A stretch of 64,000 nucleotides of DNA from Micromonospora ureilytica (GTDB lineage Bacteria > Actinomycetota > Actinomycetes > Mycobacteriales > Micromonosporaceae): NCBI RefSeq assembly GCF_015751765.1, contig NZ_JADOTX010000001.1:6262001-6326000 (forward strand), read 5' to 3'. This document shows, piece after piece, positions 2,689 to 26,367 of the stretch; position 1 is the first letter of the stretch; every line of letters starts with the position of its first letter. The notes beneath the pieces were generated by a model. The model saw nothing but the letters and a program-made list of their open reading frames with translations. It was not told the DNA's origin and did no database searches. Position numbers and translations under genes: made by a program.

Positions 2689-2772
2689 GGCGGGTTGCCC
2701 GAGCGGCCAATGGGAGCGGACTGTAAATCCGTCGCGAAAGCTTCAGAGGTTCGAATCCTCTACCCGCCACCA
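2689..2772 (+). tRNA. tyrT: tRNA-Tyr (GTA), intact, AICE integration target
   Basis: 84 nt including an encoded CCA. Acceptor GGCGGGT (2689-2695) pairs with ACCCGCC (2762-2768), the discriminator is A, and CCA is at 2770-2772. The anticodon loop CTGTAAA gives anticodon GTA. The long variable arm is that of a class II tRNA, as expected for bacterial tRNA-Tyr. From 2721 (anticodon loop) onward the sequence is shared exactly with attR, so the 3' half of this gene now comes from the integrated element. Confidence 0.97.
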
Positions 2773-2777
2773 GGTGC
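2721..2777 (+). repeat. attL: attL core of the integrated element (57 bp)
   Basis: The 57 bp at 2721-2777 recur exactly at 22661-22717. The core runs from the tRNA-Tyr anticodon loop through the CCA end and 5 bp beyond. This is the standard pattern for site-specific insertion by an AICE tyrosine recombinase. Weaker similarity continues for about 150 bp past the core in both copies. Confidence 0.95.
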
Positions 2778-3895: not shown

Positions 3896-4308
3896 ACTAC
3901 CTGCTGAACGTCGCTCCATCCCGCGAGGGTTCGATCTCTTCATCGCGAACGCGGGCACGGCGGATCACCTGGTGTCATTGACTGTCGTCCGGTGCTCCCC
4001 ATCTCGGCTACAACCGCGCTGGCTGTCGCGACATGTCGCCTAAGGGTGGCACGCGCTCGCTGCCTTTGTGCTGCACCCGGGAGCGTTCGCGAGTAGGCGC
4101 CACTCGGTCGGCACGTCCAGCGACGGCTACCCCGCTGTTGCTCGGGCGCTTAGGGCCGGATACGTGTCTCGTCTGGGCCCGTAGCACGATGGCGTCTGGC
4201 CACACTCTCGGGCTGATTGTCCGTAGTCGCGGTGCGGCCACTACACGTATTCTTCGTCCACTGTCACAGCTGATCTTCGGCCTTAGCTCACAGTTTGGGA
4301 GTGGACGC
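3896..4308. other. Intergenic region upstream of hsdR
   Basis: No convincing gene. The hsdR frame is open upstream to 4033, but that extension is low-complexity and Arg/Ser/Thr-rich with no ribosome-binding site, so it is treated as non-coding. The region presumably holds the R-M operon promoter. No clear -35/-10 pair could be assigned. Confidence 0.5.
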
Positions 4309-6783
4309 GTGGATGGTTCAGCAAGGTCGGAAGCCCGGACCATCCGCGAGCTCGTGGTTCCGAAACTGCTCCTAGCAGGGTGGTCGCCGGCTCGCTGGCA
4401 ACGTGAGTACCCGATCACGCCGGGTGGTCGCGTTGTCCTTGACCAACGAGTGCACCAGGCTCCGCCGCTCAGGGCAGACTTCGCACTGCTGCACGCAGAG
4501 CGCCCCATCGCGGTCGTTGAGGTCAAGAAGAGTAGCCGGGACGTTCGGCGAGGCGTTCAACAAGCGCGTCGGTATGCCGAGCGCCTCGACGTACCTCTCG
4601 CCTACGCGACCAACGGCCAGCGTCTGATTGAGATCGACATGCGCGCCCAGATCGAGCACGAGGTACAGGCGTTTCAGAGTCCGGAGAAGGCCTGGACACA
4701 TTACCGAAACGCAAATGAGCTCACCTCCGATCTGGCTGTCGCATTTGCTGAGACGCGATATAGTCGGCGCGTCGTTGATGCGGCAGGAAACCCGAAGAAG
4801 CTCCGTTACTATCAAGACGTCGCCGTGCAGCGACTAATCCGGGGCATTGCGAGCGACAAAAAACGGCTTTTAGCCGTCCTGGCCACTGGGGCAGGGAAGA
4901 CTAACGTCGCGATGCAGCTGGTGCACGTGCTGTGGGAGAATCGCTGGCCGCGGGGTGTCGACAGCACGGACTCGCGTCCACGAGTCCTTTACCTTGCCGA
5001 TCGAGATATTTTAGTCAACCAGCCCATGCGTGATTGGTTTCGGCCTGCATTCGGTGAGGAACCCATCACGCGTGTCACCACATCATCGCCTCGGTCCAAG
5101 CACCTCTACTTTGCACTCTATCAAGCGTTGGACCAGGTTGGAGATGGCACCGACCGATTGTTCCGGCAATACGACCCAGAGTGGTTCGACTTGGTGATCG
5201 TGGACGAGTGCCATCGGGGCAGCGCGAAGGAAAACTCAGCATGGCGCGAGGTTCTCGAGCACTTCTCGTCCGCAGTGCAGGTCGGGTTGACCGCGACGCC
5301 TGTCAGTCAAGGCCATGCAGACACTTACGGCTACTTCGGTCCTCCGATAGTCGAATACAGCCTGCGCCAAGGAATTGAGGATGGATTTCTAGCGCCGTTC
5401 CAAGTAGTGCGAGTGCATCTTGACAGCGATATCGATGGCATCGAAATCACAGAGGGTACGCTCGATGCGGTGACGGGCGAACTCGTGCCGGCCGGGATAT
5501 ACAAATTGGGGAGGCTCGAGCGAGAGTTGGTTGTCCCCGCGCGTACCGAGGAAGCAGCCAACTATCTGACCGACCTGATGCGCCGTACCGACCGCCTGGG
5601 GAAAACCATCGTGTTCTGCGTGGACCAAGCGCATGCGGCGCGATTCCGCGAGGCGATGGTCAATCGCAACAGCGACATGATGCAGACCCACAACGACTGG
5701 GTCGTGCGAATTACGTCTGATGAAGGGGAGCTCGGCAAGGTACTGCTAGACCGGTTTCAGCAGCCTGAAACGGCGGTACCGGTCGTCGTGACAACTTCCC
5801 GCCTATTGTCCACTGGCGTGGACGTGCCGACCGTAAAAAACATCGTGTTGTTTACCGCGATCAAGTCGATGCCACAGTTCAAACAGACAATCGGCCGAGG
5901 CACTCGGCTCGATGCTGACAACGGCAAGGAGTTCTTCACGATAATCGACTTTACCGGCGCCACGCGTTTGTTCGATGATCCGACTTTCGACGGGCCTCCC
6001 ATTAGGCGATCTGTCGTAAACTACGGTGATCCCATTCCAGCTGAGGCAACGGAGCCTGCGGAGCTTGATGCGGCTTTCGACGATGACTCTCCGCGATCAA
6101 CGGTCGAACAGGATGCGGCCAACGACGACGCCACGGACGTTGACGACGATGAGGTTCCCGCCGACGTGACGGATCCCGATCACATCGATGCTGTCCGTCG
6201 ACGTTCGACGGTATATACGGTTGACGGAATCGACGTACGAGTCGCCAGCGAAGGCGTCTACGTTGTTGACAGGGAAACTGGAAATCTACGACTGATTCGG
6301 TTCGAACAGTGGGTGCGTAACCGAATGCTAGCCCTCGAACTGGATCGTGAGTCTCTCCTAGCTCAATGGGCGACTGTCAGCGGGCGGAAAGCGCTCAGGG
6401 AGGCGCTTGAGGAGGAACTTGGAATCGGAATAGACGGCCTTGTGGCACGCCTGAACAGGCCTGACTGCGACCCAATTGATCTCTTGATTCACCTTGCGTG
6501 GGATGAGCCCCTCAAGACTAGGCGAGAGCGGGCAAATCGGCTTACTCGCGGTGAGCGTGCCTTCTTGAGCACGTATGCCGCGGAAGCCCGTCAGGTACTG
6601 GCTGTCCTCGTGGACAAGTACTCGGCTAACGGTCCAGATGACTTGGACGCAAAGGTGCTTGTGCTGCCGCCGTTCCGGGACATGGGGACACCAGCTCAGC
6701 TTGCCGCGAGGTTCGGCGGAGTCGACCAACTTAGGGAAGCGTTAGACGATCTGGGTCAACAACTCTTCAAATCAACTGCATGA
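4309..6783 (+). CDS. hsdR: Type I restriction enzyme, R (translocase/endonuclease) subunit
   Basis: 824 residues from the GTG at 4309, chosen because GGGAG lies 7 nt upstream and the sequence becomes HsdR-like at once (RTIRELVVPKLLLAGW). The N-terminal nuclease domain shows D57 and E71-V-K73, a PD-(D/E)xK arrangement. The SF2 motor has Walker A ATGAGKT (residues 192-198) and the DEAD-box variant DECH (299-302), followed by GLTATP. The helicase C-terminal domain carries TGVDVP and QTIGRGTRL. HsdR cuts unmodified DNA after ATP-driven translocation, in complex with HsdM and HsdS. An acidic linker near residues 590-630 and a C-terminal region likely to contact HsdM complete it. It is first in an hsdR-hsdM-hsdS operon and more AT-rich than the AICE backbone, so it is probably acquired cargo. 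Confidence 0.93.
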   Translation: MDGSARSEARTIRELVVPKLLLAGWSPARWQREYPITPGGRVVLDQRVHQAPPLRADFALLHAERPIAVVEVKKSSRDVRRGVQQARRYAERLDVPLAYATNGQRLIEIDMRAQIEHEVQAFQSPEKAWTHYRNANELTSDLAVAFAETRYSRRVVDAAGNPKKLRYYQDVAVQRLIRGIASDKKRLLAVLATGAGKTNVAMQLVHVLWENRWPRGVDSTDSRPRVLYLADRDILVNQPMRDWFRPAFGEEPITRVTTSSPRSKHLYFALYQALDQVGDGTDRLFRQYDPEWFDLVIVDECHRGSAKENSAWREVLEHFSSAVQVGLTATPVSQGHADTYGYFGPPIVEYSLRQGIEDGFLAPFQVVRVHLDSDIDGIEITEGTLDAVTGELVPAGIYKLGRLERELVVPARTEEAANYLTDLMRRTDRLGKTIVFCVDQAHAARFREAMVNRNSDMMQTHNDWVVRITSDEGELGKVLLDRFQQPETAVPVVVTTSRLLSTGVDVPTVKNIVLFTAIKSMPQFKQTIGRGTRLDADNGKEFFTIIDFTGATRLFDDPTFDGPPIRRSVVNYGDPIPAEATEPAELDAAFDDDSPRSTVEQDAANDDATDVDDDEVPADVTDPDHIDAVRRRSTVYTVDGIDVRVASEGVYVVDRETGNLRLIRFEQWVRNRMLALELDRESLLAQWATVSGRKALREALEEELGIGIDGLVARLNRPDCDPIDLLIHLAWDEPLKTRRERANRLTRGERAFLSTYAAEARQVLAVLVDKYSANGPDDLDAKVLVLPPFRDMGTPAQLAARFGGVDQLREALDDLGQQLFKSTA

Positions 6784-6886
6784 CTAGCGAAACGTTCCGC
6801 AAAACATGTTCTGGCGTCAACCCATAGCACCAGCCGTCATGCTGGCGGGGTTTGATAGAGTCAAGGCTCCGCTCAGGAGGTTGAAA

Positions 6887-8386
6887 GTGCCCCCACGCAC
6901 GAAAGCGACCGCTAAGTCGCAGTCTACTCAACAACGGCTCGCAGCAGTTATCAAGCGTTGCCGTGACATTATGCGTACAGACCCAGGGCTGAATGGGGAC
7001 CTCGATCGGCTACCCCAAATGGCATGGCTGCTCTTCCTCAAGGCATATGATGACCTTGAGGAGCAACGCGAGATCCTAAACGCGGACCACGATTCGCTCA
7101 TCGAAGACGCGTTTCGGTGGCGGACGTGGGCACGGGATGAGAAACTCACTGGCGATGACCTTCTTGCCTTCGTCAACGACAAGCTGATCCCGCACCTGAA
7201 GGCCTTGCCGAAAAGCGAAAGTGGCCTGAGCGCGGGAGACGTCATTGCTGGCATCTTTCAGGGCATTGATAATCGGATGCGATCTGGTTACCAACTTCGA
7301 GAGTTGGTTAGCGAACTTAATAAAATTCACTTTGATTCTGCCGATGATATCCACACCATGGCGCGGCTCTACGAGTCCATGCTTCGGCAGGTTAGGGACG
7401 CCGCCGGAGACTCTGGTGAGTTTTATACTCCGCGGCCGGTGATTCGATTCATGGTGCAGCAAGTAGACCCCAAGCTGGGCGACATAGTTCTCGACCCAGC
7501 AGCAGGTACTGGCGGATTCCTCATCGAGAGCCTCGAGTATCTTCGCGAGCGCAACCAAGCAATTTCTGTGCCACAGTCCGAGAAGCTGCACGCATCGCTT
7601 AGGGGCTTCGAGAAGAAGTCGCTGCCATACCTGCTGTCGACCATGAACATGCTTCTTCACGACGTTGATTCGCCCCGAATCAGCCTTGGCAATTCGCTAC
7701 AGGCGTTAATGGCCAATCGGTCTGCATCGGCGCAAGTTGACATTGTGCTAACCAATCCACCGTTTGGAGGCGCGGAAAGCGGTGATATATCTAAGGGTTT
7801 CCCGAAGGAGTTCCAGACTGCCGAGACTGCGTGGCTTTTCCTTTACTTAGTGATAGAGACCCTCCGGCCAGGGGGCAGATGCGGGATCGTTGTGCCGAAC
7901 AACGTTCTGGTAGAGAGCGAGATCGGGGCACGGTTCAAGAGGAAGCTCTTCGAGACCTGCAACGTGCACACCGTAGTACGTCTGCCTGATGGTGTATTCG
8001 CGCCTTACACCGACATTCCGTCGAACATAATCTTCTTCGAGAAGGGTGCGCCAACAGAGGCGGTCTGGTTTTACCAGATAAGCCCGCCGCTTGGCCGCAA
8101 AAAATACACCAAGACTCGGCCGATGCAGACGGATGAGTTTGCTGAATGCAGTGAGTGGTGGGGCGGGCTGGGTAGATCGAACCGTACGGAGACAGATAAT
8201 GCATGGCGAGTGACAGCAGAGGAACTCGTCCACAGCAACTACAACTTGGACCTTCGAAGCCCGGTGAGCCTGGCTGACTTAGCCCATCGCCCTCACGGGG
8301 AACTGCTGCAGGAATTGATCGCCGCAGAAGAAGAGATTCTTTCCCTCCTTAATGGGCTTCATCGAGCACTGGAAGATGGAAAATGA
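6887..8386 (+). CDS. hsdM: Type I DNA methyltransferase, M subunit (N6-adenine)
   Basis: 499 residues from the GTG at 6887, selected by a perfect AGGAGG (6875-6880) 6 nt upstream; an in-frame ATG at 6806 lacks such a site. The N-terminal helical HsdM domain (about 15-160) includes DRLPQMAWLLFLKAYDD. The methyltransferase domain has the SAM-binding motif DPAAGTGGF (203-211) and the catalytic NPPF (290-293), the adenine-N6 signature. GEFYTPRPVIRFM just before motif I is typical of HsdM. With HsdS it methylates the recognition site and protects host DNA. It is 103 bp after hsdR and overlaps hsdS by 4 bp (ATGA). Confidence 0.96.
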   Translation: MPPRTKATAKSQSTQQRLAAVIKRCRDIMRTDPGLNGDLDRLPQMAWLLFLKAYDDLEEQREILNADHDSLIEDAFRWRTWARDEKLTGDDLLAFVNDKLIPHLKALPKSESGLSAGDVIAGIFQGIDNRMRSGYQLRELVSELNKIHFDSADDIHTMARLYESMLRQVRDAAGDSGEFYTPRPVIRFMVQQVDPKLGDIVLDPAAGTGGFLIESLEYLRERNQAISVPQSEKLHASLRGFEKKSLPYLLSTMNMLLHDVDSPRISLGNSLQALMANRSASAQVDIVLTNPPFGGAESGDISKGFPKEFQTAETAWLFLYLVIETLRPGGRCGIVVPNNVLVESEIGARFKRKLFETCNVHTVVRLPDGVFAPYTDIPSNIIFFEKGAPTEAVWFYQISPPLGRKKYTKTRPMQTDEFAECSEWWGGLGRSNRTETDNAWRVTAEELVHSNYNLDLRSPVSLADLAHRPHGELLQELIAAEEEILSLLNGLHRALEDGK

Positions 8387-8961
8387 CAAGCTACATGCAG
8401 CGCCCGCTAGGAGAGCTGCTCGTCAGGGTTTCCGACAGTGTGACCGTGGAACCGGGCACGAGCTATGAGACAGCCGGCATTTACTCTTACGGTCGGGGAT
8501 TGTTCAAGCGAGGTGGTCTCGATGGCGCCAGTATCAGCTACACGAGGCTGTTCAAGATTCGCTCTGGCCAACTGGTCTTCAGCCGCCTCTTCGCCTGGGA
8601 AGGGGCGATAGCAGTCGTCACTGACGAGTTTGATGGCCTCCTGGTATCGCCTGAGTTTCCTGTCTACGAAATCAGAGAGGATCTGGTCCACCCCGCCTAT
8701 ATGAGTCAGATCTGCACGTGGCCGGCGCTACACGATTCGTTGCGCGACAAGGCGTCCGGAATGGGTAACCGACGGCAGCGCGTGAACGTCGATCAGTTCG
8801 AGCGAGCTACAATACCTGTTCCGTCCCGGGACGATCAGATGCGGATCATTGAACGGCTTGGAGTGGTTCGGGATGTTTGTGAGCGAATCGATGAGGTAGC
8901 TCGTCGCTCGCAGGCATTGCGCGTGTCATTCCTCAGCGCCGCGTTCTCCGGCAAACTCTGA
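8383..8961 (+). CDS. hsdS: Type I specificity subunit, half-size (single target recognition domain)
   Basis: 192 residues, about half the usual 380-450. One TRD (about 1-150) is visible with typical HsdS text: KIRSGQLVFSRLFAWEGAIAVV and FERATIPVPSRDDQMRI. One C-terminal coiled-coil spacer (about 150-190, RLGVVRDVCERIDEVARRSQALRVSFLSAAFSGKL) ends it with the canonical AAFSGKL. Full HsdS proteins have two TRDs and two spacers and read a bipartite asymmetric site. Half-HsdS proteins are known that dimerise and read a symmetric split site. The stop is followed by sequence without TRD character, so this does not look like a recent frameshift. It overlaps hsdM by 4 bp. Confidence 0.9.
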   Translation: MTSYMQRPLGELLVRVSDSVTVEPGTSYETAGIYSYGRGLFKRGGLDGASISYTRLFKIRSGQLVFSRLFAWEGAIAVVTDEFDGLLVSPEFPVYEIREDLVHPAYMSQICTWPALHDSLRDKASGMGNRRQRVNVDQFERATIPVPSRDDQMRIIERLGVVRDVCERIDEVARRSQALRVSFLSAAFSGKL

Positions 8962-14075: not shown

Positions 14076-14090
14076 GTTGGAGGTTGAGCG

Positions 14091-14486: not shown

Positions 14487-14499
14487 CCGCACATGGTGG

Positions 14500-14539: not shown

Positions 14540-14578
14540 TCTGTCTCTTTCCCCTGCTCTGTCGAGAGAGGTAGTGAC

Positions 14579-14635
14579 ATGTCCAAGCGTATGCCCGCCG
14601 TCCTGCGGCGGCCCACAGTGGCGGGTGCGCGATGA
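14579..14635 (+). CDS. 18-codon micro-orf coupled to traSA
   Basis: ATG at 14579 encodes MSKRMPAVLRRPTVAGAR and stops at 14633-14635. Its stop overlaps the traSA ATG (14632) as ATGA, and GAGAGAGG precedes its start. That arrangement suggests translational coupling: ribosomes finishing the peptide would start traSA, which lacks a clear ribosome-binding site of its own. The peptide is strongly basic. Confidence 0.5.
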   Translation: MSKRMPAVLRRPTVAGAR

Positions 14636-16257
14636 TCCGCCGGCCGCGGGGCGAGGTCGTGATGACCACCGCCGGGGACCTGATGGTGATCCGGCCGCGT
14701 CGGCTGGAGCTGCCGGTCTGGCTGATCGCGCTCGGCCTGGTGCTGCGGTGGTTGTGGCGGGGCCTGTGGTGGTGTCTTCGCCATCCGGTCGCCGTCGCCC
14801 TGGTCGTGGCCGGGGTGAGCCTCTACCGCGAGTTCGGCCGGGCTGGCGTGATCGTGCCTTTGGTCTTGGCCGCTGCCGTGTCGGCGCTGTGGCGGTGGCG
14901 GCACGAGTCGTCCTGGTGGACCTGGTGCGCCGGTCCGATCCTCGGTCGGTTCCGGCAACTCTTCGTCTACCGGCGGGCCTGGCGCGAGGCAATGACCCTC
15001 TGCGGCCTGGCCAAGATGTACGACCACCGCACGGTCCTGCCAGAGCTGCTGCGGGTCCGCTCGGATCAGGCGCTCGACGTGCTGACCATCCGCATGGTCC
15101 GCGGCCAGACACCCGAGGAGTTCCAGAAGGCAACGGCAAACCTGGCGTACGCCTTCGGCCGGCGGCACGCCCGGGTCTACTCCGAGCGCCCCGATGACCC
15201 GCCGATCCGGTCGGGCTACTGGGCGCTGGTCCTGGGCGCGGTCGACCGGCTGCGATTCCGGGACCGGCCGTCAGCGGTCTACCTGGTGGTGGTCCGCACG
15301 GACGCGCTACGCACCCTGGTCGACCCGTTCGACGTCCCGTCGGTGCCCGACTTCACCGCGCTACCCCTGGCCCGGCGGGAAGACCTGCGGCGCTGGTGCC
15401 TGCACCTGCTCGCCACCCACGTCCTCATCGGCGGCGCCACCCGCTCCGGTAAGGGCTCGGTGCTGTGGTCGCTGGTCCGGGTCCTGGCCGGCGGGATCTC
15501 CTCCGGGCTGGTCCGGCTCTGGGTGATCGATCCCAAGGGCGGTATGGAGTTCGCGATGGGCCGGCCGCTGTTTGCCCGGTTCGCCTGCAAGTCGTTCGAG
15601 GCCATGGCCGACCTGCTCGACGAGGCCGTGACAGTGATGCGCGAGCGGCAGACCCGCCTTGCTGGCGCGGTGCGGGTCCACACTCCGACCCTGGCTGACC
15701 CCCTGGTCGTGGTCGTCATCGACGAGATGGCGGCACTGACCGCGTACCTCCAGGACGTCGACCTGCGCAAGCGCATCGCCGGGTCGCTCGGATTGCTGCT
15801 GTCGCAGGGTGCCGGCGTCGGTGTCCTGGTGGTGGCCGCGTTGCAGGACCCCCGCAAGGAGGTGCTGCCGTTCCGCGACCTGTTCCCGACCCGAATCGCG
15901 CTCGGCCTGACCGAGGCCGCTCAGGTCGACCTCGTGTTGGGTGATGGCGCCCGCAACCGGGGTGCCCTCGCCGACCAGATGCCCCGCTGGGCCAAGGGCG
16001 TCGGCTACGTGATCCTCGACGGCACCCCGGAACCGGCCCGGGTGCGCTTCTCCTACATCTCTGATGACCACATTCGGGAGCTGGCCGCCGAATATCCGGC
16101 CCCGGCCGACGCGGCGGACATCCTCGCCCAGGTCGGCCGGGAAACCGCCACCGAACCGACCCGGCCGCCCCTGCCCCGGCAGCGCCGCGGACCACTGCTG
16201 CCCGACTCGCTGCTCAACATCCTCGACCGGGACACCGACGGGGGTGAGCCGCGGTGA
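14632..16257 (+). CDS. traSA: FtsK/SpoIIIE-family conjugal DNA translocase (TraSA/TraB type)
   Basis: 541 residues. Two hydrophobic segments lie near the N-terminus (about 27-42 and 53-83), followed by an FtsK-type motor. Walker A is GGATRSGKGS (267-276) and Walker B is VVVVIDE (D364, E365). VIDPKGGMEFAMG and AALQDPRKEVLPFRDLFPTRIAL are FtsK family hallmarks. AICE translocases assemble as membrane hexamers and pump double-stranded DNA into the recipient, unlike type IV systems. The start at 14632 overlaps the micro-orf; an ATG at 14662 is an alternative. It ends in a GTGA overlap with the next gene. Confidence 0.93.
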   Translation: MIRRPRGEVVMTTAGDLMVIRPRRLELPVWLIALGLVLRWLWRGLWWCLRHPVAVALVVAGVSLYREFGRAGVIVPLVLAAAVSALWRWRHESSWWTWCAGPILGRFRQLFVYRRAWREAMTLCGLAKMYDHRTVLPELLRVRSDQALDVLTIRMVRGQTPEEFQKATANLAYAFGRRHARVYSERPDDPPIRSGYWALVLGAVDRLRFRDRPSAVYLVVVRTDALRTLVDPFDVPSVPDFTALPLARREDLRRWCLHLLATHVLIGGATRSGKGSVLWSLVRVLAGGISSGLVRLWVIDPKGGMEFAMGRPLFARFACKSFEAMADLLDEAVTVMRERQTRLAGAVRVHTPTLADPLVVVVIDEMAALTAYLQDVDLRKRIAGSLGLLLSQGAGVGVLVVAALQDPRKEVLPFRDLFPTRIALGLTEAAQVDLVLGDGARNRGALADQMPRWAKGVGYVILDGTPEPARVRFSYISDDHIRELAAEYPAPADAADILAQVGRETATEPTRPPLPRQRRGPLLPDSLLNILDRDTDGGEPR

Positions 16258-16520
16258 CCGTCCCGACCGACGGCCGGACCTTCTACCGGCTCCGCGCGCC
16301 CGGCACCGATGGTGCCACCAGCACGGCCGTGTCTGTCCGCGTCGACCCCGCTCGACCCGATGCGTACCCGGTCTATCTCGCCGTCGGCGGCGGCCGGCGC
16401 CGCATGTCCCTGACCCCCGACGAGGCGTGGGCGCTGTGGCGCTGCCTCTCCGAAGCGGTGGCCTCCCTCGGCGAGCCGCCCGACCACATCCGTACCCGCG
16501 TCGCCCCGGCCCGGAGGTAA
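16254..16520 (+). CDS. Small AICE hypothetical protein
   Basis: 88 residues, starting in a GTGA overlap with traSA. Mixed alpha/beta character: YRLRAPGTDGATSTAVSVRV, then LAVGGGRRRMSLTPDEAWAL and a closing helix (WRCLSEAVASLG). The region MSLTPDEAWALWRCL resembles the C-terminal helix of the two DUF6907-like proteins of this element, but the Cys/His part is absent. No function assigned. It is tightly packed in the transfer operon, so translation is likely. Confidence 0.7.
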   Translation: MTVPTDGRTFYRLRAPGTDGATSTAVSVRVDPARPDAYPVYLAVGGGRRRMSLTPDEAWALWRCLSEAVASLGEPPDHIRTRVAPARR

Positions 16521-16523
16521 CCG

Positions 16524-16712
16524 ATGTCCCTCAAGAGCTTCTTCCTCGGCACCCACCGCCTCAAGCCGCTGCACATCGAACTCAACGGCTCCCCGGACCG
16601 GCTCGCCGGTGCCCTGCACGGCCTGGCACACATGGTCAACCGCCGCCGCGACCTCAACGGCCAGCAGATCTGCATCACCCTGACCGTCCGCGACAACGGC
16701 AGCGGCCGATGA
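16524..16712 (+). CDS. Small AICE hypothetical protein
   Basis: 62 residues, 3 nt after the preceding stop, with GGAGG overlapping that stop. Its end overlaps the DUF2637 gene as ATGA. Begins MSLKSFFLGTHRLKPLHIEL and ends QQICITLTVRDNGSGR, a compact alpha/beta pattern without recognised motif. The conserved operon position in an AICE transfer region is the main support. Confidence 0.65.
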   Translation: MSLKSFFLGTHRLKPLHIELNGSPDRLAGALHGLAHMVNRRRDLNGQQICITLTVRDNGSGR

Positions 16713-17251
16713 TCCGCGAACGCGCCGAGTCCGGCGTTCGAGTGCTGATCCTGCTCGCCATCGGCACCATGGCCGGCGCCGCTGCCTTTACCCACGTCCA
16801 CGACCTGACCGTCGCCCACGGCCAGCCCGATTGGATCGGCTGGGCTAACGCCGTGGCGGTTGAGCTGATGGCCATCTACCTCGGCCTGGAAATCCGCGCC
16901 CGCCGTCGCACCGGTCGACCCGTCGGCCTGGTCGGCGTCCTCCTGATCGCGTTCGCGCTGCTCTCCCTCGCCGCCCAGGTCGCCGAAGCCGAACCATCCG
17001 TCTGGGGCTGGATCGTGGCGGCGGTGCCGTCGCTGGCCTTCCTCGCCCTGGTGAAGGTCGTCCTGTCCAGCGAACCCGCCACCCCGCCGGCTTCTGAGCC
17101 CGATCAGCCGCAGGGCGATTGGTACGACGAGCCGCAGCCTGTCGAACCCGCGCCGCCGACTCCGGTGATGCCGCCGGCATCAGTAGCGGTGCTGCCTCCG
17201 GTCGGTGTCGTCCAGCACAACCGGCCCCAGGTCGTCGGGATCATCCGATGA
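16709..17251 (+). CDS. DUF2637-type membrane protein (Spd-like)
   Basis: 180 residues from the ATG at 16709 (ATGA overlap upstream). Four hydrophobic segments occupy about 10-30, 42-60, 70-90 and 98-115, containing GAAAFTHVHDLTVAHGQPDWIGWANAV-like DUF2637 text. A proline-rich, acidic cytoplasmic tail (about 120-165) follows and ends VVQHNRPQVVGIIR. DUF2637 proteins sit beside rep and tra genes in actinobacterial elements and may aid intramycelial spread. The stop overlaps the rep ATG. The last codons and the rep start are duplicated in a relic at 22900-22929. Confidence 0.8.
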   Translation: MIRERAESGVRVLILLAIGTMAGAAAFTHVHDLTVAHGQPDWIGWANAVAVELMAIYLGLEIRARRRTGRPVGLVGVLLIAFALLSLAAQVAEAEPSVWGWIVAAVPSLAFLALVKVVLSSEPATPPASEPDQPQGDWYDEPQPVEPAPPTPVMPPASVAVLPPVGVVQHNRPQVVGIIR

Positions 17252-19002
17252 CGGCTCCGACCCTGCCCGGTCTCGAACCCGCCCCGACCCCGGTTGCTCC
17301 TCGGCCGGGGTCGCGGGCGGCCCGCATGGCGCTACCCCGCTCGATCGATGTGCTCAGGGACATCGCCATCGAGTACGGCGTTTGCGTCCGCCCGCTCGCG
17401 ATGCGCCGCACCGACCTCGACACCGGCCTGACCGAAGTCATCGACCTTCCCTGCGGCGCGACCCGCGAGGACAAGTGCCCGCCGTGCGCCAAGAAGAACC
17501 GCCGGCTACGGCAAGCCCAGATCCGCGAGGGCTGGCACCGCGACGACGAACCGCTACCCGGCCCCGAACCCGCGACCGAGGCGCAGAAGTCCCTGATCCT
17601 GTTCCGCGCACACCTGGAGTTCTCCCGCGATGAGGCGGTGAGGGCGGCCCAGTGGGACCAGGTGGCCGACCTCGACGAGGCTATCCGCGAGGTAGAGGAA
17701 GCCATCGCCGCTGAGGGCCTGCGCGGGCGCGTCGGGCCACCGCACGCCAGCGACGACGAGGACCAGGACGACGAGCCCGGCCCACGGCGCAAGCGCTCCA
17801 CCAAGCGGCGCCAGGATGCCCCCGAACTGCCTCGGCGCAAGGTAGAGCGGCGCACCGTCGGCAAGACCTACACCGCCCCGGACGGCGCCACCTACCAACC
17901 GTCGATGTGGCTCACCCTCACTCTCGACTCGTACGGCCCGGTCCGCCCCGACGGCACCCCCGTCAACCCCGCCCGGTACGACTATCGGCGGGCAGCCTGG
18001 GACGCGGTCCACTTCCCTCGTCTGCTGGACCGGTTCTGGCAGAACCTCCGGCGGTGCGAGGGCTGGAACGTCCAGTACGCCGGCTGCGTCGAGCCGCAAC
18101 GCCGACTCGCCCCACACGCGCACTTCGCCATCCGGGGCACCATCCCTCGGGACGTGCTGCGCACCGTGGCGGCGGCGACCTACCACCAGGTGTGGTGGCC
18201 CTCGGTCGACGTCCAGCGCTACACCCTCGACCGGCTCCCGATCTGGGACGAACAGGCGGCGACATGGGTCGACCCCGACTCCCGCGAGCCGCTGACCACC
18301 TGGACGGAAGCCCTCGACTCCATCGACGACGATCCGGACGCGGAACCGGTTCACGTCGTCCGCTTCGGCGCCCAGGTCGACGCCCGTGGCGTCATGCCCG
18401 GCACCGAGGACGCCGAACGGACCATCCGGTACGTCACGAAATACATCACCAAGCACACCGGCGACTGCCACAAGGCGACTACCGACCGGCAACGCAAGCA
18501 CCTCGACCGGCTCTGGCAGCAACTCCAGCTGACGCCCTGCACCGACCGCTGCGCAAACTGGCTGCTCTACGGCGTCCAGCCGAAGAAGGCACACGCCAAG
18601 CTCAAGCCGGGCCGCTGCAAGGGCAAGGTCCACCAGCGCGACACTCTCGGCATCGGCGGCCGGCGCATCCTCATCTCCCGCGACTGGTCCGGCAAGACCC
18701 TCGCCGACCACAAGCACGACGCTCGGGCCTGGGTGCGAGCGCTGCTCGGCGTCACCACCGACGGCACGCAGCTCGTCGACGACCAGGGCGACACCGCCGA
18801 ACGAGTCCGGCACGCCTGGGAGTTGGCCCGACCCGATGACCCGGACGTCGGCCCCATGACCCACCGGCTCATGCGGTCGATCAGCGAACGCGCCCGCTGG
18901 CGATCCGAACTGCTCGCAGCCAAAGACCGGGCCGCGCAGGGGTCCCCAGATCTTTCGGCAACTCAGCACAGCGCACAGCACGACGGGGAGGAACCGCAGT
19001 GA
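17248..19002 (+). CDS. repSA: RepSA-type rolling-circle replication initiator
   Basis: 584 residues from the ATG at 17248, which overlaps the upstream stop as ATGA. An N-terminal Cys cluster (C69, C77, C80; KCPPCAKKNRR) looks like a zinc knuckle. A charged linker (about 165-200) follows. The relaxase-like core has HAHF (290-293), the HUH metal-binding motif, and ERTIRYVTKYITKHTG (about 390-405), where a tyrosine is the likely nicking residue. The C-terminus includes RRILISRDWSGKTLADHK. Such proteins nick the double-strand origin of the excised circle. An origin probably lies near or in this gene or in the repeat block at 13628-14090. Confidence 0.88.
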   Translation: MTAPTLPGLEPAPTPVAPRPGSRAARMALPRSIDVLRDIAIEYGVCVRPLAMRRTDLDTGLTEVIDLPCGATREDKCPPCAKKNRRLRQAQIREGWHRDDEPLPGPEPATEAQKSLILFRAHLEFSRDEAVRAAQWDQVADLDEAIREVEEAIAAEGLRGRVGPPHASDDEDQDDEPGPRRKRSTKRRQDAPELPRRKVERRTVGKTYTAPDGATYQPSMWLTLTLDSYGPVRPDGTPVNPARYDYRRAAWDAVHFPRLLDRFWQNLRRCEGWNVQYAGCVEPQRRLAPHAHFAIRGTIPRDVLRTVAAATYHQVWWPSVDVQRYTLDRLPIWDEQAATWVDPDSREPLTTWTEALDSIDDDPDAEPVHVVRFGAQVDARGVMPGTEDAERTIRYVTKYITKHTGDCHKATTDRQRKHLDRLWQQLQLTPCTDRCANWLLYGVQPKKAHAKLKPGRCKGKVHQRDTLGIGGRRILISRDWSGKTLADHKHDARAWVRALLGVTTDGTQLVDDQGDTAERVRHAWELARPDDPDVGPMTHRLMRSISERARWRSELLAAKDRAAQGSPDLSATQHSAQHDGEEPQ

Positions 19003-19184
19003 ACGAGGAGTTGTTGACCGTGCCGGAAGTGCTCGCCGAGCTGCGCGTACCGCGCTCGACCTGGTTCTACTGGCGGCAGACCGGCAAGGGGCCACGAGTG
19101 ATCAAGCTCCCGAACGGGCAGCTCCGGGTCCGCCGGTCGGCGCTCGGTCGGTGGCTCGGCGACCTGGAGCAGGACGCCGCATGA
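18999..19184 (+). CDS. xis: Excisionase with MerR-like HTH
   Basis: 61 residues. TVPEVLAELRVPRSTWFYW is the helix-turn-helix, and GKGPRVIKLPNGQLRVRRSAL is the wing, both standard for AICE Xis and DUF-type excisionases. It binds near the att sites to bias Int toward excision. GTGA overlap with repSA and ATGA overlap with int show rep-xis-int co-translation, as in pSAM2. Confidence 0.9.
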   Translation: MNEELLTVPEVLAELRVPRSTWFYWRQTGKGPRVIKLPNGQLRVRRSALGRWLGDLEQDAA

Positions 19185-20617
19185 AGAGCTACGAGGTCCA
19201 GATCTGGGAGATCGCCAAGCGCGCCGACCGGAAGGCTCGGCCGTGGCGGGTCCGCTGGGCGGTGAGCGGCCAACGCTTCGAGGGCATGTTCCGTACCAAG
19301 GCCCTGGCGCACTCGTTCCGCGCCGAGCTGGTCCAGACGGCCAACGCGGGGGAGCCGTTCGACCCGGCCACCGGCCGCCCGGTCTCCGAGGCCAGAACCA
19401 AGAACCCCACCACCTGGTACGCGCACAGCCGCGCGTACGTCGAGATGAAGTGGCCCCGGGCGGCGGCCAAGACTCGACGCTCGATCGTCGAAGCGCTGAC
19501 CTCGATCACGGTGACCCTCACCCGGCCGACAAAGCGGGGCCGACCGACTGACGCTCTGCTCCGTGAGGCGCTGTACCTCTACGGGCTCAACCCCCGCCGC
19601 TGGTCCGACGAGATCCCGCCCGAACACGCAGCGGCGCTGGCCTGGCTGGAAAGCACATCTCTGCCGGTAGTTGAGCTGGACTCACCCGCGATGGTCCGCC
19701 GCGTCCTCGACAGTCTGTGTGTACGCCTGGACGGCAAGCCCGCGGCTGCCTCCACCGTCCAGCGGAAGCGGGCCACCTTCTACAACGTGCTCGGGTACGC
19801 CGTCGAGCTGGAGCTGATCGCCTCCAACCCGGTCGACCGGGTCCAGTGGACTGCCCCCGAGGTCGCACAGTCCATCGACCGGCGGGTGGTGGCAAATCCG
19901 GCCCAGGTCGCCACGCTGCTGGAGGCGGTGAAATCTCTCGGCAAACGCGCCGACAAAGTCACGGCGTTCTTCGGCTGCCTCTACTACGCGGGGATGCGTC
20001 CCTCAGAAGCCTCGGACCTACGGCGGGAGGACTGCGACCTTGCCGGCCGGTGCGCCGACTGCGGCGCAGACTTCGACGACCTGGCGGCGGTCAACCCTTC
20101 CCGGTCCTGCGACCACGAGAAGATCGAATATCGCTGGGGCCGCCTGGTGCTCGCCGGCACCTCGCCGCGCGCCGGGTCGCACTGGACCGACGACGGCGGC
20201 TCCCACGAGCGGCGCGGACTCAAGCACCGGGGGAGGGCCGAGACTCGGACGGTCCCGATCCCGCCCCGGCTCGTCGAGCTGCTGGGCGCGCACGTAGAGA
20301 ATCACGGGGTCGGCCCGGACGGTCGATTCTTCCGCGGCCTGCACGGTGGGCCCCTGTCGGAGTCGGTCTACGACCGGTGGTGGAAGCTCGCCCGCGAGAA
20401 GGCGCTGACCGAACCGCAGGTTGCCTCGCCGCTCGTTCGCCGGCCCTACGACCTGCGGCACGCGGCGGCCTCGCTCTGGCTGAATGCCGGCGTTCCACCG
20501 ACCGAGGTAGCCCGGCGCCTGGGTCACGGCGTCGCCGTCCTGCTCCGCGTCTACGCCAACTGCATCGACGGGGGAGACGACACCATGAACGACAAGATCA
20601 GCGATGCCCTCCGATGA
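19181..20617 (+). CDS. int: Tyrosine site-specific integrase
   Basis: 478 residues. An N-terminal arm-binding part and SAM-like core-binding domain precede the catalytic domain. Catalytic residues: R273 in AGMRPSEASDL, the box II YDLRHAA (R426), LGHG (H449) and the nucleophile Y458 in RVYANCID. Box II has Tyr where many relatives have His; YDLRH is common in AICE integrases. An unusual Cys-rich insert (about 290-315, CADCGADFDDLAAV plus a later SCDHE) looks like a zinc site. Its substrate is the tRNA-Tyr core at 2721/22661. In many AICEs int abuts att; here 2 kb of cargo intervenes. Confidence 0.95.
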   Translation: MKSYEVQIWEIAKRADRKARPWRVRWAVSGQRFEGMFRTKALAHSFRAELVQTANAGEPFDPATGRPVSEARTKNPTTWYAHSRAYVEMKWPRAAAKTRRSIVEALTSITVTLTRPTKRGRPTDALLREALYLYGLNPRRWSDEIPPEHAAALAWLESTSLPVVELDSPAMVRRVLDSLCVRLDGKPAAASTVQRKRATFYNVLGYAVELELIASNPVDRVQWTAPEVAQSIDRRVVANPAQVATLLEAVKSLGKRADKVTAFFGCLYYAGMRPSEASDLRREDCDLAGRCADCGADFDDLAAVNPSRSCDHEKIEYRWGRLVLAGTSPRAGSHWTDDGGSHERRGLKHRGRAETRTVPIPPRLVELLGAHVENHGVGPDGRFFRGLHGGPLSESVYDRWWKLAREKALTEPQVASPLVRRPYDLRHAAASLWLNAGVPPTEVARRLGHGVAVLLRVYANCIDGGDDTMNDKISDALR

Positions 20618-20628
20618 ACCCCTGCCAG

Positions 20629-20856
20629 TCAGGAAGTAGCCTCTCCGACCGGTCCGGGGTCGCACTCGACCAGCCGGCGGGCTTCCGCAACCACCTCTGC
20701 GTTCAACGCCGTCATGTTGGTGCCGATGAACTGGGCGAGCTCGTAGGCGTCATCGAGGCGCACCAACTCGTGAGCCGATCCACTGCATGTCGCACCCAGG
20801 TCGTAACTTAGAACACATGTACGACACCCGCTACGCTCGCTCCCCGCCTCCGCCAA
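20629..20856 (-). CDS. Small hypothetical protein, minus strand
   Basis: 75 codons. The stretch HELVRLDDAYELAQFIGTNM and VVAEARRLVECDPG looks like a genuine amphipathic helical protein, with Cys residues near the N-terminus. The actual start is uncertain. It is convergent with int and its stop lies 12 bp past the int stop. No family recognised; it may be a fragment of a longer gene. Confidence 0.4.
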   Translation of the reverse strand: MAEAGSERSGCRTCVLSYDLGATCSGSAHELVRLDDAYELAQFIGTNMTALNAEVVAEARRLVECDPGPVGEATS

Positions 20857-20947
20857 CGACTGCTGACCGGTTCCTTACAGACACACGGTCAGATCTGCGC
20901 TCGAAACTAGGGTGACGAGACATCCCCATCACCCACCGGAGGAACTT

Positions 20948-21958
20948 ATGCCGGAATACAGCCTCGCCGCCTACACCATCAGAGTCCGCCCACGAATGTC
21001 ATCAAAGTCTTCCGACAACTACCTACCCCTTGACAAGTTTGATGGGTCCGCCTCCGACCTTGCACCCTTTCTCTACGCATTCTTTAACGGCCTCATCAAT
21101 ACTCCATACCAGCACAAGGATGAAGGAAAGTACCTAATCGCCGAGACGGTGCGGGCCGAGGACCGGTCAATTTACACAACAGTCCGCTCAGGGAGCCACG
21201 GACACCAGTCGACTCTGCGCGATGTTGAAACACACCAGGATACGTACGAACGCCAGGCAAACGAGGCTGAGCTAATCCCCCTACGAAACCTATTCGTAAT
21301 CCCGCATAACTCATTGGCGGGGATCTTCCTGACAGAACGCGTCGGCGTCCGAGGGCTCAAGTCCTCACTAGACCACATCCTGACACGTACATTCGCAGCA
21401 AGATTTCCTGGTTTCTCCGTCGAACTCAGTCCGCTCGCCCCTGAGGCGGCAGTGAAGGCATCCATCGAAGAAGGCGAACTAAAGAAGATCCGCCTAGTGC
21501 GCTATGGGATTCCGAGCGACGTTGCGGATCAGTACAATCTAGGCGCTCACGAAGAAGAGCTGGGAATCATGGAGCTAGTCCTTAAGCCGGACCGTGCATT
21601 GGCATTTCCCAAGCAGAAGGTGCGCGACGCCCTAAACGACAACAGCCTCCCGGCGCTGCTAGAGATTCGTGGCCTGGACTACCACGACATAAAACTAGAG
21701 GTGAAGGTCGGAAAGTCCATGCGGACGCTCACCGTTACTCAGGAACGCCCTCCTCGCGTAACATTCCCTCTTCCAGAGAATAAGAACATACCGAGCGGTC
21801 GCCCCACCGACGGCACCGTGCATGAGGTCGCCGCTGAGGTGGTCGCGGAACTAGCGAAGGACCTGTCTATTCGCGAGTCCGACTATGCCGGCACAGAGTT
21901 TTTCTGGACGGCCGACATCCTCGCCAGAAAGCTAGTGATAGCGAATGATGAAGGCTAG
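20948..21958 (+). CDS. Unrecognised cargo protein A of a two-gene cassette
   Basis: 336 residues from the ATG at 20948; GGAGGA lies 4 nt upstream, so the longer frame from 20912 is rejected. The protein is soluble and mixed alpha/beta, with no signal peptide or membrane helix. It contains AYTIRVRPRM, YQHKDEGKYLIAETV, FVIPHNSLAGIFLTERVGVRG (split here as family-like text), and a lysine/arginine-rich C-terminal half. The text LFVIPHNSLAGIFLTERVG and GLKSSLDHILTRTFAARFPG suggests a compact folded domain. I do not recognise a family. Codon use is more AT-rich than the AICE backbone, indicating separate origin. It overlaps gene B by 14 bp. Position between int and attR is typical for accessory or defence cargo; function unknown. 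Confidence 0.8.
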   Translation: MPEYSLAAYTIRVRPRMSSKSSDNYLPLDKFDGSASDLAPFLYAFFNGLINTPYQHKDEGKYLIAETVRAEDRSIYTTVRSGSHGHQSTLRDVETHQDTYERQANEAELIPLRNLFVIPHNSLAGIFLTERVGVRGLKSSLDHILTRTFAARFPGFSVELSPLAPEAAVKASIEEGELKKIRLVRYGIPSDVADQYNLGAHEEELGIMELVLKPDRALAFPKQKVRDALNDNSLPALLEIRGLDYHDIKLEVKVGKSMRTLTVTQERPPRVTFPLPENKNIPSGRPTDGTVHEVAAEVVAELAKDLSIRESDYAGTEFFWTADILARKLVIANDEG

Positions 21959-22466
21959 TGTACTTCCGATCATCCGGGATCACCTTGATACTATGCGCGA
22001 TGCTAGGACTGGTCGCGTCAGGATTTCAGATCTGATCTTCTTCTACGGACTGCCAGTCCTGGTCGGGGCGGCCGCCTACCTTCTCTCTTGGCATGTCAAG
22101 GGAATCGACAATCTGCTTGCCGCCCTGTCCATCCTTACCGGACTATTGTTCAACCTGCTCGTTCTACTATTTGACACTGCCGCCCGCTTTAAAGGTCGAC
22201 CGACCGGTAAAGTCAGCGCCGACAACGCACACAAATATCGACTCCTCCATGAACTGCAAGCAAACATTACCTACACACTTGGCGTTGGCCTCCTAGTTGC
22301 GATCATATTGGGGGTATGCTCGCTCGCTGGAATAGAGGATGCGCAGCGACCCTGGTCTATAGTCGTGACGGCGTCACTCGCACACTTCGTGCTATTGCTG
22401 GGAATGTTGCTTAAACGACTTCGCTCAGTCTTCCTCGCAGAGTTTCCACGGCTTCTTGGCGCGTAG
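21945..22466 (+). CDS. Unrecognised cargo protein B: four-helix membrane protein
   Basis: 173 residues from ATG 21945 (ATG 21948 is an alternative), starting inside the end of gene A. Four hydrophobic segments are visible: about 28-46 (LIFFYGLPVLVGAAAYLLSW), 53-75 (LLAALSILTGLLFNLLVLLF), 112-130 (LGVGLLVAIILGVCSLAG) and 140-158 (VVTASLAHFVLLLGMLL). A basic cytoplasmic loop between helices 2 and 3 (about 76-108) contains FKGRPTGKVSADNAHKYR. A small membrane protein paired with a soluble partner is the layout of several toxin or anti-phage modules (inference). No homologue is recognised. Confidence 0.75.
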   Translation: MMKASVLPIIRDHLDTMRDARTGRVRISDLIFFYGLPVLVGAAAYLLSWHVKGIDNLLAALSILTGLLFNLLVLLFDTAARFKGRPTGKVSADNAHKYRLLHELQANITYTLGVGLLVAIILGVCSLAGIEDAQRPWSIVVTASLAHFVLLLGMLLKRLRSVFLAEFPRLLGA

Positions 22467-22660
22467 CGCTGTGAGGCGGACGGCTGGTCGAGCTTTGAGG
22501 TCGGTTGCGCAACCGATGAATGGAGAGCCGCCTGAACATCAGGCGTCTCGCACCGTGCCGTGGGGCGTGGGCACATGGTGGGCGGCTGATCGGTCGGTGT
22601 CGGTGAGGCGGCGAGAAGCAGCAGCTCAGAGGTGCTGACCGAGGCAAGATCACGGACGCC
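22467..22660. other. Right-end non-coding sequence of the AICE
   Basis: 194 bases between the membrane protein and attR with no gene. Probably holds Int/Xis arm sites for attP, which cannot be identified by eye. Confidence 0.5.
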
Positions 22661-22717
22661 CTGTAAATCCGTCGCGAAAGCTTCAGAGGTTCGAATCCTC
22701 TACCCGCCACCAGGTGC
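22661..22717 (+). repeat. attR: attR core (57 bp), truncated tRNA-Tyr copy
   Basis: Exact copy of 2721-2777. Upstream bases do not complete the tRNA, so this is the displaced 3' part of the original gene and not a functional tRNA. The repeat marks the right boundary of the element. Confidence 0.95.
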
Positions 22718-22721
22718 AGAA

Positions 22722-23838: not shown

Positions 23839-26367
23839 ATGATCGGTCGCGGTCAGCCCCGGCGCAGATCGTCCGAAGACGCCTGGATCATCACCGCGCC
23901 TCTCACGTTGGTCGCGATCTTCTGCGCCACCATCACCGGGCTGGTCGCGCCAGAGCCGTTCGGTGACTGGCCGGAGGCTGCTCTACTCCTCGTCCTCATG
24001 ATCGCGGCGGGGTTGCCGCTGCTCAGCCTTGTGGTCCGGCGTCAGACGCTGGGCGTCACGCTCACCGAGCTGCCACTGGTCCTCGCGCTCTACTTCTTGC
24101 CGCCGCTGACCGTGGTGGTCATCTACACGTTGACCTCGCTCATCACCCACAAGCGGCAGCGGTTGTCGGCGCCCAAGGTGTGGTTCAACGTGGCGCGGGC
24201 CGCCGCGGGGAGTTCACTGGCCGTCCTCGTCCTGCAGGCACTTCCGCCCATCGACGGGGTGGGTCCGCGCACCTGGGGCAGCATCTTCGCCGCCGTCAGC
24301 ATGGTGATTCTCATCAGCTACGCCAGCGTGGTGGGCGTGCACACGCTGCTGCACGGATGGCAGACCGGGCGCGGGGCGTTGCGTACTGCCAAGCCGGTGC
24401 TGCTCACTGCGGTGATCAACGTTTCGGTCGGCCTGATCGTGCTGATCCTGGTGCGGAGCACGTGGTGGTCGCTGCTCCTGCTCGCTGCCCTCGGCGTCGG
24501 CCTCGCACTGGTCTACCGGGCCTACTCCCAGTTCTTCCGCCAGCACCGCACCCTCACCGACCTGTACGCGCTGACCCGCGCGGTGGTCGAGAGCGGGCAG
24601 AGCGGCACGCTGCCGGACGCGCTGCTCGGGCGGGTGCGCGCGCTGATGCAGGCGGAGTACGCGACGCTGTGGCTCCCGGCACAGGGGCGACATCCGGAGG
24701 CGCTGTTGACCGCCCGGGTGGACGACCCCGGGCTGCTCGATCTGGCGCACACGCCGGCGGCGATCCGGGAGCGGGTCCGCGATAGCCGGCGTACGGTCGC
24801 CGTCGGCCGTGGTGTGACCACCGACGAGGAATTCCGGGCCGACCTCGCCGGGCAGCGGATCAAGGATGCGGTAGTGGTGCCGCTGCGGTCGGGTCAGGTC
24901 GTCATCGGCACTCTCGAGGTGGCCAACCGCCTCGGCGACGGCAACAACTTCACGGCGACGGACATCGCGATCTTCGAGACGGTGGCCGCGCACGCCGCGG
25001 TGGCCCTGGAGAATTCCCGGCTTGTCGACCGGCTGCGCCACGACGCATACCACGACACGCTGACCAAGCTGCCCAACCGGCGGCGGGTCACCGGCGCGCT
25101 GGAGGAGTCGATCAAGATCGGCGCGCCGGACGAGGTGGTGGCGCTGCTGCTGTTCGACGTCGACGGGCTACGTCAGGTCAACGAGTCGCTCGGCCACGCG
25201 GCCGGGGACAAGGTCCTCGTCGAGGTCGCCAGCCGGCTGCGGGCCAGCGCCCCGTCGTCGGCTCTGGTCGGGCGCGTCGGCGGGGACGAGTTCCTGGTGA
25301 CGCTTCGTCTGGAGAGCCCGGCGGCGGCCCTGGAGCTCGCCAGTCAGCTGCGGGACCAGATCCGCGACGAGATGGTCTTCGACGCGCTCACTCTGGTGGT
25401 GGACACCGCCGTAGGGGTGGCCGTACACCCGGATCATGGCAGCGACGCGGCCACCTTGCTGCTGCGGGTCGACCTGGCCACGACGGCGGCCAAGTCGGTG
25501 CCGGGCAGTGTGCAGTTGTTCAACCCGGGCCTGGAGTCTCGGTCGCTGCGCCGGTTGGGTTTGGCCGGCGATCTGCGCCGAGCACTGGACCAGGACGAGC
25601 TGGAGGTCTATTTCCAGCCCAAGGTGACTCTGCGGGACCGGCGCCTGGTTGGTGTCGAGTGTCTGGCCCGGTGGGAGCACCCGGCGCACGGCACTGTCGC
25701 TCCCGAGGACTTCGTGGCGGTGGCCGAGCACACCGGCCAGTTGAGCCGGCTCACCGAGGTGGTGCTCCGCGAGGGCCTTCGTCGCAGTCGGGACTGGGCG
25801 CTTGCCGACCAGCCGTTGCCCATCGCGGTCAATCTCTCGGCCCGTACGCTCGTCGACCAGCACTTCCCGGACCGGGTCCAGGAGTTGCTGACCGAGTACA
25901 AGGTGCCGGCGCAGCGCCTCACCCTGGAGATCACCGAGTCGGGGGTGCTGGACGGCACGGACCGACCCATCCCCACCCTGCAACGGCTGCGGGATCTGGG
26001 CGTACGGCTGTCGGTGGACGACTTCGGCACCGGTGACTCGTCTCTGGCGCATCTGCGGCGGTTGCCGGTGCACGAGGTGAAGGTGGACCGCTCCTTCGTG
26101 CAGGGAATGGCGACCGATCCGGGGGACCTGGCGATCGTCAACGCGGTGGTGACTCTCTCCCAGCAGTTCGGTCTGGCCGTGGTGGCCGAGGGTGTGGAGA
26201 GCGAGCTGACCCTGGAGCTTCTTCAGGACATCGGCTGTGAGATCGGGCAGGGCTTCCTGTTCAGCAGACCGCTGCCGTACGAGCGGTTGGCTGCCTGGTT
26301 CGGCGCCCAGGTCGAGCCGGAGTCGATCTCCAGTGGAGAGCTGCCGCGCCTCCGTGTCGTGCCCTGA
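23839..26367 (+). CDS. Membrane-anchored GAF-GGDEF-EAL cyclic di-GMP enzyme
   Basis: 842 residues. Six or so membrane helices (about 17-235) form an N-terminal sensor region. A GAF-like domain (about 245-395) follows. The GGDEF domain has an exact GGDEF at 481-485 and LFDVDGLRQVNESLGHAAGD upstream, so diguanylate cyclase activity is plausible; no RxxD inhibitory site is seen. The EAL domain has ECL (607-609), AVNLSAR, EITES, VDDFGTG, EVKVDRSF and AEGVES, so all metal and catalytic residues appear present for c-di-GMP hydrolysis. Which activity dominates cannot be told. YajQ lies just across the AICE. Confidence 0.95.
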   Translation: MIGRGQPRRRSSEDAWIITAPLTLVAIFCATITGLVAPEPFGDWPEAALLLVLMIAAGLPLLSLVVRRQTLGVTLTELPLVLALYFLPPLTVVVIYTLTSLITHKRQRLSAPKVWFNVARAAAGSSLAVLVLQALPPIDGVGPRTWGSIFAAVSMVILISYASVVGVHTLLHGWQTGRGALRTAKPVLLTAVINVSVGLIVLILVRSTWWSLLLLAALGVGLALVYRAYSQFFRQHRTLTDLYALTRAVVESGQSGTLPDALLGRVRALMQAEYATLWLPAQGRHPEALLTARVDDPGLLDLAHTPAAIRERVRDSRRTVAVGRGVTTDEEFRADLAGQRIKDAVVVPLRSGQVVIGTLEVANRLGDGNNFTATDIAIFETVAAHAAVALENSRLVDRLRHDAYHDTLTKLPNRRRVTGALEESIKIGAPDEVVALLLFDVDGLRQVNESLGHAAGDKVLVEVASRLRASAPSSALVGRVGGDEFLVTLRLESPAAALELASQLRDQIRDEMVFDALTLVVDTAVGVAVHPDHGSDAATLLLRVDLATTAAKSVPGSVQLFNPGLESRSLRRLGLAGDLRRALDQDELEVYFQPKVTLRDRRLVGVECLARWEHPAHGTVAPEDFVAVAEHTGQLSRLTEVVLREGLRRSRDWALADQPLPIAVNLSARTLVDQHFPDRVQELLTEYKVPAQRLTLEITESGVLDGTDRPIPTLQRLRDLGVRLSVDDFGTGDSSLAHLRRLPVHEVKVDRSFVQGMATDPGDLAIVNAVVTLSQQFGLAVVAEGVESELTLELLQDIGCEIGQGFLFSRPLPYERLAAWFGAQVEPESISSGELPRLRVVP

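Follow-up and report, generated by a model that had tools for sequence, protein, structure and literature searches.

What do two small overlapping genes do when they lie at the very end of a conjugative element, between its integrase gene and its right attachment site? The question is raised by positions 20948–22466 of a 64,000-nucleotide stretch of Micromonospora ureilytica DNA (contig NZ_JADOTX010000001.1; hereafter the window), where a gene for a soluble protein is followed by a gene for a membrane protein on an actinomycete integrative and conjugative element (AICE). The original prediction, made from the letters of the sequence, had called the pair an unrecognised cassette. The pair is very probably an abortive-infection module of the RexAB type, carried by the AICE as cargo. 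This assignment draws on the genes themselves, homology to the RexA-like proteins of Gordonia phage CarolAnn and mycobacteriophage Sbash, a predicted RexA fold, co-conservation of the pair and its carriage outside phages.

The gene pair

The two open reading frames (ORFs) lie where they had been placed, between the integrase ORF and attR, and share 14 bp (Table 1). Both are AT-richer than the element around them, as claimed: the GC content of the rexA-like and rexB-like genes is 0.558 and 0.534 against 0.70 for the int and rep ORFs, and at third codon positions (GC3) 0.64 and 0.58 against 0.87 and 0.85 for int and rep respectively. The strong ribosome-binding site attributed to the pair corresponds to a strong RBS-like stretch, CCGGAGGAACTT, which abuts the ATG at 20948, with a GGAGG motif 5 bases upstream of that codon. 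Kyte–Doolittle hydropathy gives no hydrophobic segment in the 336-residue protein and four hydrophobic regions in the 173-residue protein (approximately residues 27–48, 57–75, 104–130 and 138–156), in agreement with the description of a soluble protein paired with a four-helix membrane protein. A scan of 20600–22720 revealed no sigma-70-like promoter or intrinsic-terminator-like site. Both frames are regarded as real because they have database relatives, six for the soluble and eleven for the membrane protein at E ≤ 0.001.

Identity of the soluble protein

Profile comparison (hhalign), with an alignment of five window-type proteins as query, matched the soluble protein over residues 3–333 to a profile of CarolAnn44, Sbash30 and Sejanus46 (Prob 98.9, E 2.9e-17). 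Identity to the CarolAnn and Sbash RexA-like proteins is about 20–22%. The label 'unrecognised' thus gives way to membership of the CarolAnn/Sbash branch of the RexAB type. PHROG 36224 also matches the protein (E 1.8e-14), and tblastn against phages found gp44 of CarolAnn (E 2e-10), gp46 of Sejanus, the deposited name of which is RexA family abortive infection protein, gp33 of Doggs and ORF1 of the filamentous phage PfAC16. The closest relatives, at 87–97% identity, come from three Micromonospora (strain LHW51205, NPDC047793 and M. globbae), and relatives at about 50% include Actinoplanes. A plasmid search returned one Rhodococcus and two Acinetobacter records.

Structure prediction and fold search, the check that had been proposed for the pair, gave a consistent answer for this protein. 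The AlphaFold (AF2) model (pLDDT 77) had lambda RexA (8TWQ) as its sole PDB match at E < 1e-3, and in a second structural comparison Iml3 and RdgC came next after lambda RexA. Tested in this way, the modelled protein has the RexA/RdgC fold.

At the level of sequence, lambda RexA and RexB gave no signal against the window-type profiles, and a search of solved structures by sequence produced nothing meaningful. Scans of genome contigs with the soluble protein and profile A1, and of viral contigs with profile A1 and the L012 protein, yielded no confirmed relative. Pfam (above cut-off), NCBIfam and PADLOC held no usable match for either protein; weak Pfam lines (Lin0512, DUF7528, M99, DUF4064, presenilin) and an NCBIfam SpoVR line fell below cut-off and were rejected. 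The earlier statement that neither product matches a family therefore stands for these three collections and fails for PHROGs and phage records. The window pair does not match the Pfam models for RexA (PF15969), RexB (PF15968) or DUF4747. At E ≤ 10 these models miss CarolAnn gp44 and Sbash gp30 and gp31 as well, and match the lambda proteins only. Since the proven members tested are unmatched too, the Pfam Rex models do not cover the CarolAnn/Sbash branch, which is therefore easily overlooked. A DUF4747 motif has been reported for Sbash gp30 and lambda RexA.

The membrane protein and its pairing

The membrane protein matches the CarolAnn43/Sbash31/Sejanus45 profile weakly (E 5e-4, Prob 31), albeit collinearly over 135 columns. 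It has no match to lambda RexB, and a plasmid search with it as query yielded nothing. It is taken as the RexB half because of its pairing with RexA-like genes. Of 26 other loci examined, 24 have a RexB-like gene adjoining the RexA-like one, some of them beside integrases or restriction-modification (R-M) genes, so that the co-occurrence which the original prediction had asked about is strong. In a first set of 20 loci the RexB-like gene always follows the RexA-like gene directly on the same strand, either overlapping it or separated from it by no more than 67 bp, and its products have 3–5 hydrophobic segments; eleven of these loci had supplied profile rows, while L030–L037 were reached via the RexA profile only and L017 via the RexB profile only. 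In a second set (L068–L073) four of six loci have the partner. There L068 (G1062) lacks a RexB-like ORF, as does L073 (G054), which has a short RexA-like ORF (215 aa) and one internal stop within the match. Some copies are irregular: the RexB-like ORF of G223, near a contig end, is short (151 aa) with a different C-terminus, the RexA-like frame of G241 ends early (303 aa) at a TAG within the match, that of L071 is cut by the contig start, and G182 and G185 have marginal partial RexA matches (E ~2e-4).

The lower GC content of the pair and the existence of phage homologues could be taken to mark a phage remnant, left by a prophage once at the same tRNA site and no longer selected. That is highly improbable, however, as both frames are intact and two other Micromonospora, NPDC047793 and M. 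globbae, keep both genes (RexA 89 and 87%, RexB 82% identity), with consecutive locus tags in NPDC047793 and on contigs of equal length in M. globbae. Furthermore, there are no phage structural genes among the ten AICE ORFs given to Pfam.

Association with type I restriction-modification operons

In three genomes of the same family, G223 (L030), G216 (L031) and G196 (L032), the pair follows a type I operon that has M, S and R genes: it is on the same strand and begins 142–182 bp past the R gene, which in G196 is split over two ORFs. The RexA proteins of G216 and G196 are 94% and the RexB proteins 91% identical, whilst their HsdM proteins share 20.5% over 278 aa and their HsdS proteins 31.9% over 257 aa, and HsdR gave no match against one of the two R ORFs. 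By these alignments the two operons are very different, though not wholly unlike. A single DNA block is shared by the two loci (1667 bp, 89% identical, blastn E ≤ 1e-10), consisting of the pair plus about 120 bp upstream. Because a closely similar RexAB cassette alone is shared behind very different R-M operons, defence rather than lysogeny control would be favoured as the selected function. The window RexA is 27–28% identical to the R-M-linked RexA proteins, and no RepSA gene occurs within 100 kb or on the same contig of these three pairs.

An HsdM control covered 16 genomes, namely the 19 that had a RexA match minus G054, G182 and G185. HsdM occurs at 12 places in nine of the 16 genomes, four of the 12 within 15 kb of a pair. 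As HsdM genes are few, this is more than expected from spacing alone: by arithmetic, a density of one HsdM in 7.8 Mb corresponds to about 0.3% for any 20-kb neighbourhood. Three of the four linked loci, however, have RexA proteins 94–98% identical and represent one RexAB lineage, and this lack of independence weakens the association. Beside the pair at the other chromosomal loci examined, no type I R-M operon was seen with crude gene calls based on GC periodicity. ORF 2929–5031 of L068 matches the HsdM query weakly (1e-7), though its genome has no HsdM_N match. In G241 (L033, ~8592–16718) the pair is divergent from a cluster of SNF2-helicase and Eco57I-like methylase genes, for which PADLOC gave type II methyltransferases and ZorD-type helicases as matches. 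The same cluster includes a 542-aa protein with no match in Pfam (E ≤ 1e-4) or PADLOC (E ≤ 1e-3).

Distribution and carriage

RexA-like genes are rare. In counts that all include the window's own genome, they were found in three of 160 genomes of the genus with the window's soluble protein as query, in 10 (profile A3) or 13 (profile A12) of 354 genomes of the family, in six of 394 across the class (A12) and in two of 396 across the phylum (A3).

Of six phage stretches, five (CarolAnn, Sejanus, Doggs, PfAC16 and DumpsterDude) have, no more than 5 kb from the pair, a gene that carries the label integrase, excise or repressor; the Sbash stretch has no gene so labelled. Among the chromosomal matches listed, a serine-integrase-like ORF lies about 4 kb upstream of the pair in G820, and the pairs of G019 and G1069 are about 1 kb from a tyrosine integrase and about 6 kb from an integrase-like ORF, respectively. 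When five phage repressors were searched against 16 chromosomal loci, none was the best match of an ORF at 1e-5, a test that is insensitive.

This carriage bears on whether the pair might serve the element itself, in maintenance or transfer control: as a toxin–antitoxin-like system, in entry exclusion, or by tuning AICE excision or replication through DNA binding by the RexA-like protein, in the way that lambda RexA has been suggested to act on the CI/Cro switch. The pair does lie beside xis and int at the element's end, and lambda RexA is reported to bind DNA and modulate the lysogeny switch. Relatives are nevertheless also found in phages, on plasmids and behind the R-M operons of G216, G223 and G196, where RepSA is not nearby, and the repressor queries, for what that test can detect, point the same way. 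This evidence is in turn weakened by the integrase-like genes close to the pairs of phages and of G019, G820 and G1069. A role in element control is thus considered unlikely, and defence cargo remains the preferred interpretation.

Some records merit separate mention. Two Acinetobacter plasmids (L008 and L009) have a RexAB-like pair near BrnTA, and each also has a predicted resistance gene, against macrolides in L008 and against tetracycline in L009. In Pseudomonas phage PfAC16 (L005, 412–1883) the pair lies near the record start beside a repressor gene and is annotated only as hypothetical. The RexB-like ORF of Gordonia phage DumpsterDude (L006, 2947–3492) exceeds annotated gene 43 (3145–3492).

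The host element

The element carrying the pair is an AICE of the pSAM2 type, with tRNA attachment repeats, an integrase, an excisionase-like gene, RepSA and an FtsK-type translocase. A 32-base part of the attachment repeat had no match in 100 shuffles. The type I R-M genes belong to the same element, in line with the original prediction. The element also has a glycosyltransferase-like gene (Pfam).

Table 1. Coordinates of the gene pair and of the element that carries it
Feature	Position	Strand	Remarks
rexA-like gene, soluble protein, 336 aa	20948..21958	+	ATG 20948 to TAG 21958; predicted sensor/activator
rexB-like gene, membrane protein, 173 aa	21945..22466	+	ATG 21945 to TAG 22466; predicted effector
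RBS-like stretch 5' of first gene	20936..20947	+	sequence reading
attL, 57 bp	2721..2777	+	3' end of intact tRNA-Tyr (2689-2772) plus 5 bp
attR, 57 bp	22661..22717	+	exact copy of attL
type I R-M genes	4033..8961	+	HsdR 4033-6783, HsdM 6806-8386, short S-position gene 8383-8961
GntR-type regulators	9329-10009 and 10973-11947		Pfam
FtsK/SpoIIIE-type DNA translocase	14632..16257	+	PF01580 E 4.5e-8; conjugation role by analogy with AICEs
RepSA replication initiator, pSAM2 type	17119..19002	+	PF20199 E 8.4e-99; true start probably internal to ORF
excisionase-like HTH_17 protein	18999..19184	+	Pfam
tyrosine integrase	19151..20617	+	PF00589 E 2.9e-10

Among the ten ORFs scanned, no phage-type repressor was recognised adjoining the pair, the neighbours of which are int (with xis and RepSA beyond) and attR. 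The locus thus lacks the cI-rexA-rexB arrangement of a phage immunity region; the recognised regulators of the element are of the GntR type.

The product of the S-position gene is only 192 aa long with no Pfam match at E ≤ 0.001, and is possibly a half-subunit or the product of a shortened S gene. In four relatives (G036, G089, G137 and G141) a second copy of the tRNA-Tyr 3' end (93–100% identity) lies 2–17 kb off. From such sequence features tRNA-Tyr looks like an integration hotspot. The gene adjoining attR (23839–26367) is about 1–27 kb from tRNA-Tyr in eight relatives examined. G078 has about 1.0 kb here, close to the 1.1–1.3 kb at the window's attR, and its site may therefore be empty, although the right flank itself did not align there.

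Proposed function

CarolAnn 43 and 44 form a proven two-gene defence, reported to be abolished by loss of either gene, and Kita gp53 is described as toxic only when both are present. Sbash 30/31 is a sister system, and the model proposed for both has the RexA-like protein activating the membrane protein. By analogy the window's RexA-like protein, with its RexA/RdgC fold, would be expected to dimerise and to bind DNA non-specifically. It may respond to infection by sensing a phage component or intermediate, and then activate the RexB-like protein, which would permeabilise or depolarise the membrane, and the infected cell would stop growth ahead of phage production. Sensing, activation, membrane effect and phage exclusion are here all modelled on relatives. 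In Pseudomonas putida, RexAB has been reported to cause RexB-dependent growth arrest and membrane leakage, the latter in a small subpopulation; the two-hybrid test described there showed no RexA–RexB binding. The guess of a defence or toxin module is upheld insofar as prophage defence has been demonstrated for relatives and the two genes are strongly co-conserved, whilst phage exclusion by the window pair itself is predicted by analogy.

The order of roles could also be the reverse. In the Butters pair, which has the same gene layout, gp30 is the effector and is sequestered by gp31, as summarised in the P. putida paper; the soluble protein of the window would then be the antiviral or toxic part, held at the membrane by its partner until infection. 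This is improbable, since the window RexA-like protein aligns over its full length with the CarolAnn and Sbash proteins, for which activation of the membrane protein is proposed, whereas Butters was compared by description only.

A broader extension of the RexAB assignment is tentative and rather doubtful. RexAB might be a free-standing defence cassette of phages, plasmids, conjugative elements and R-M loci rather than essentially a prophage system, with any part in the CI/Cro switch secondary, and in the window's family it might back up type I restriction as a second line of defence. Phage DNA cut by, or surviving, restriction would give DNA–protein intermediates, which an RdgC-like RexA could detect, whereupon RexB would abort the infection.

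Gentile et al. reported that some Mycobacterium and Rhodococcus have homologues of Sbash gp30 followed by a small membrane protein, and regarded prophages as their most likely location. Adams et al. (2024) described orphan RexA homologues that lack RexB, lie outside prophages or both, and left undecided whether Rex homologues truly serve exclusion or exclude phages only as a by-product. A DefenseFinder survey found RexAB in Proteobacteria only and chiefly on prophages, and suggested that limits of detection or a biased database might account for this. At the level of titles and abstracts, no report was found of RexAB on an AICE or behind R-M operons. The novelty lies in where the genes are carried: one RexAB-like pair sits on a conjugative element, and in three genomes of the same family a RexAB cassette immediately follows a type I R-M operon. 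Non-viral carriage allows the real purpose of Rex, defence or control of the lysogeny switch, to be asked. The AICE pair without a recognised phage-type repressor, and the 1.67-kb cassette behind two R-M operons, are settings in which a switch role seems absent and in which defence is directly testable.

Comparison with known systems

Kiwa likewise pairs a small protein with four transmembrane segments (KwaA) and a soluble protein of similar size (KwaB), albeit in the reverse gene order to the window pair. It was considered from this layout and dropped; PADLOC-DB includes Kiwa models, and neither window protein matched in PADLOC at E ≤ 10. RexABpp of P. putida prophage P1 (PP_5643–5644), compared by description only, belongs to a prophage of a Gram-negative host. 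With lambda RexA and RexB the likeness consists of the RexA/RdgC/Iml3-like fold, by model comparison, and the soluble/membrane layout; the lambda pair differs in being coupled to cI/cro and is without a sequence-level match to the window pair.

The nearest parallels are gp44/gp43 of CarolAnn and gp30/gp31 of Sbash, in which, as in the window, a soluble RexA-like gene overlaps a gene for a RexB-like membrane protein. Sbash does not share the cI-rexA-rexB arrangement. Both of these pairs are phage-borne, that of CarolAnn beside its immunity repressor, whereas the window pair resides on an AICE beside xis and int.
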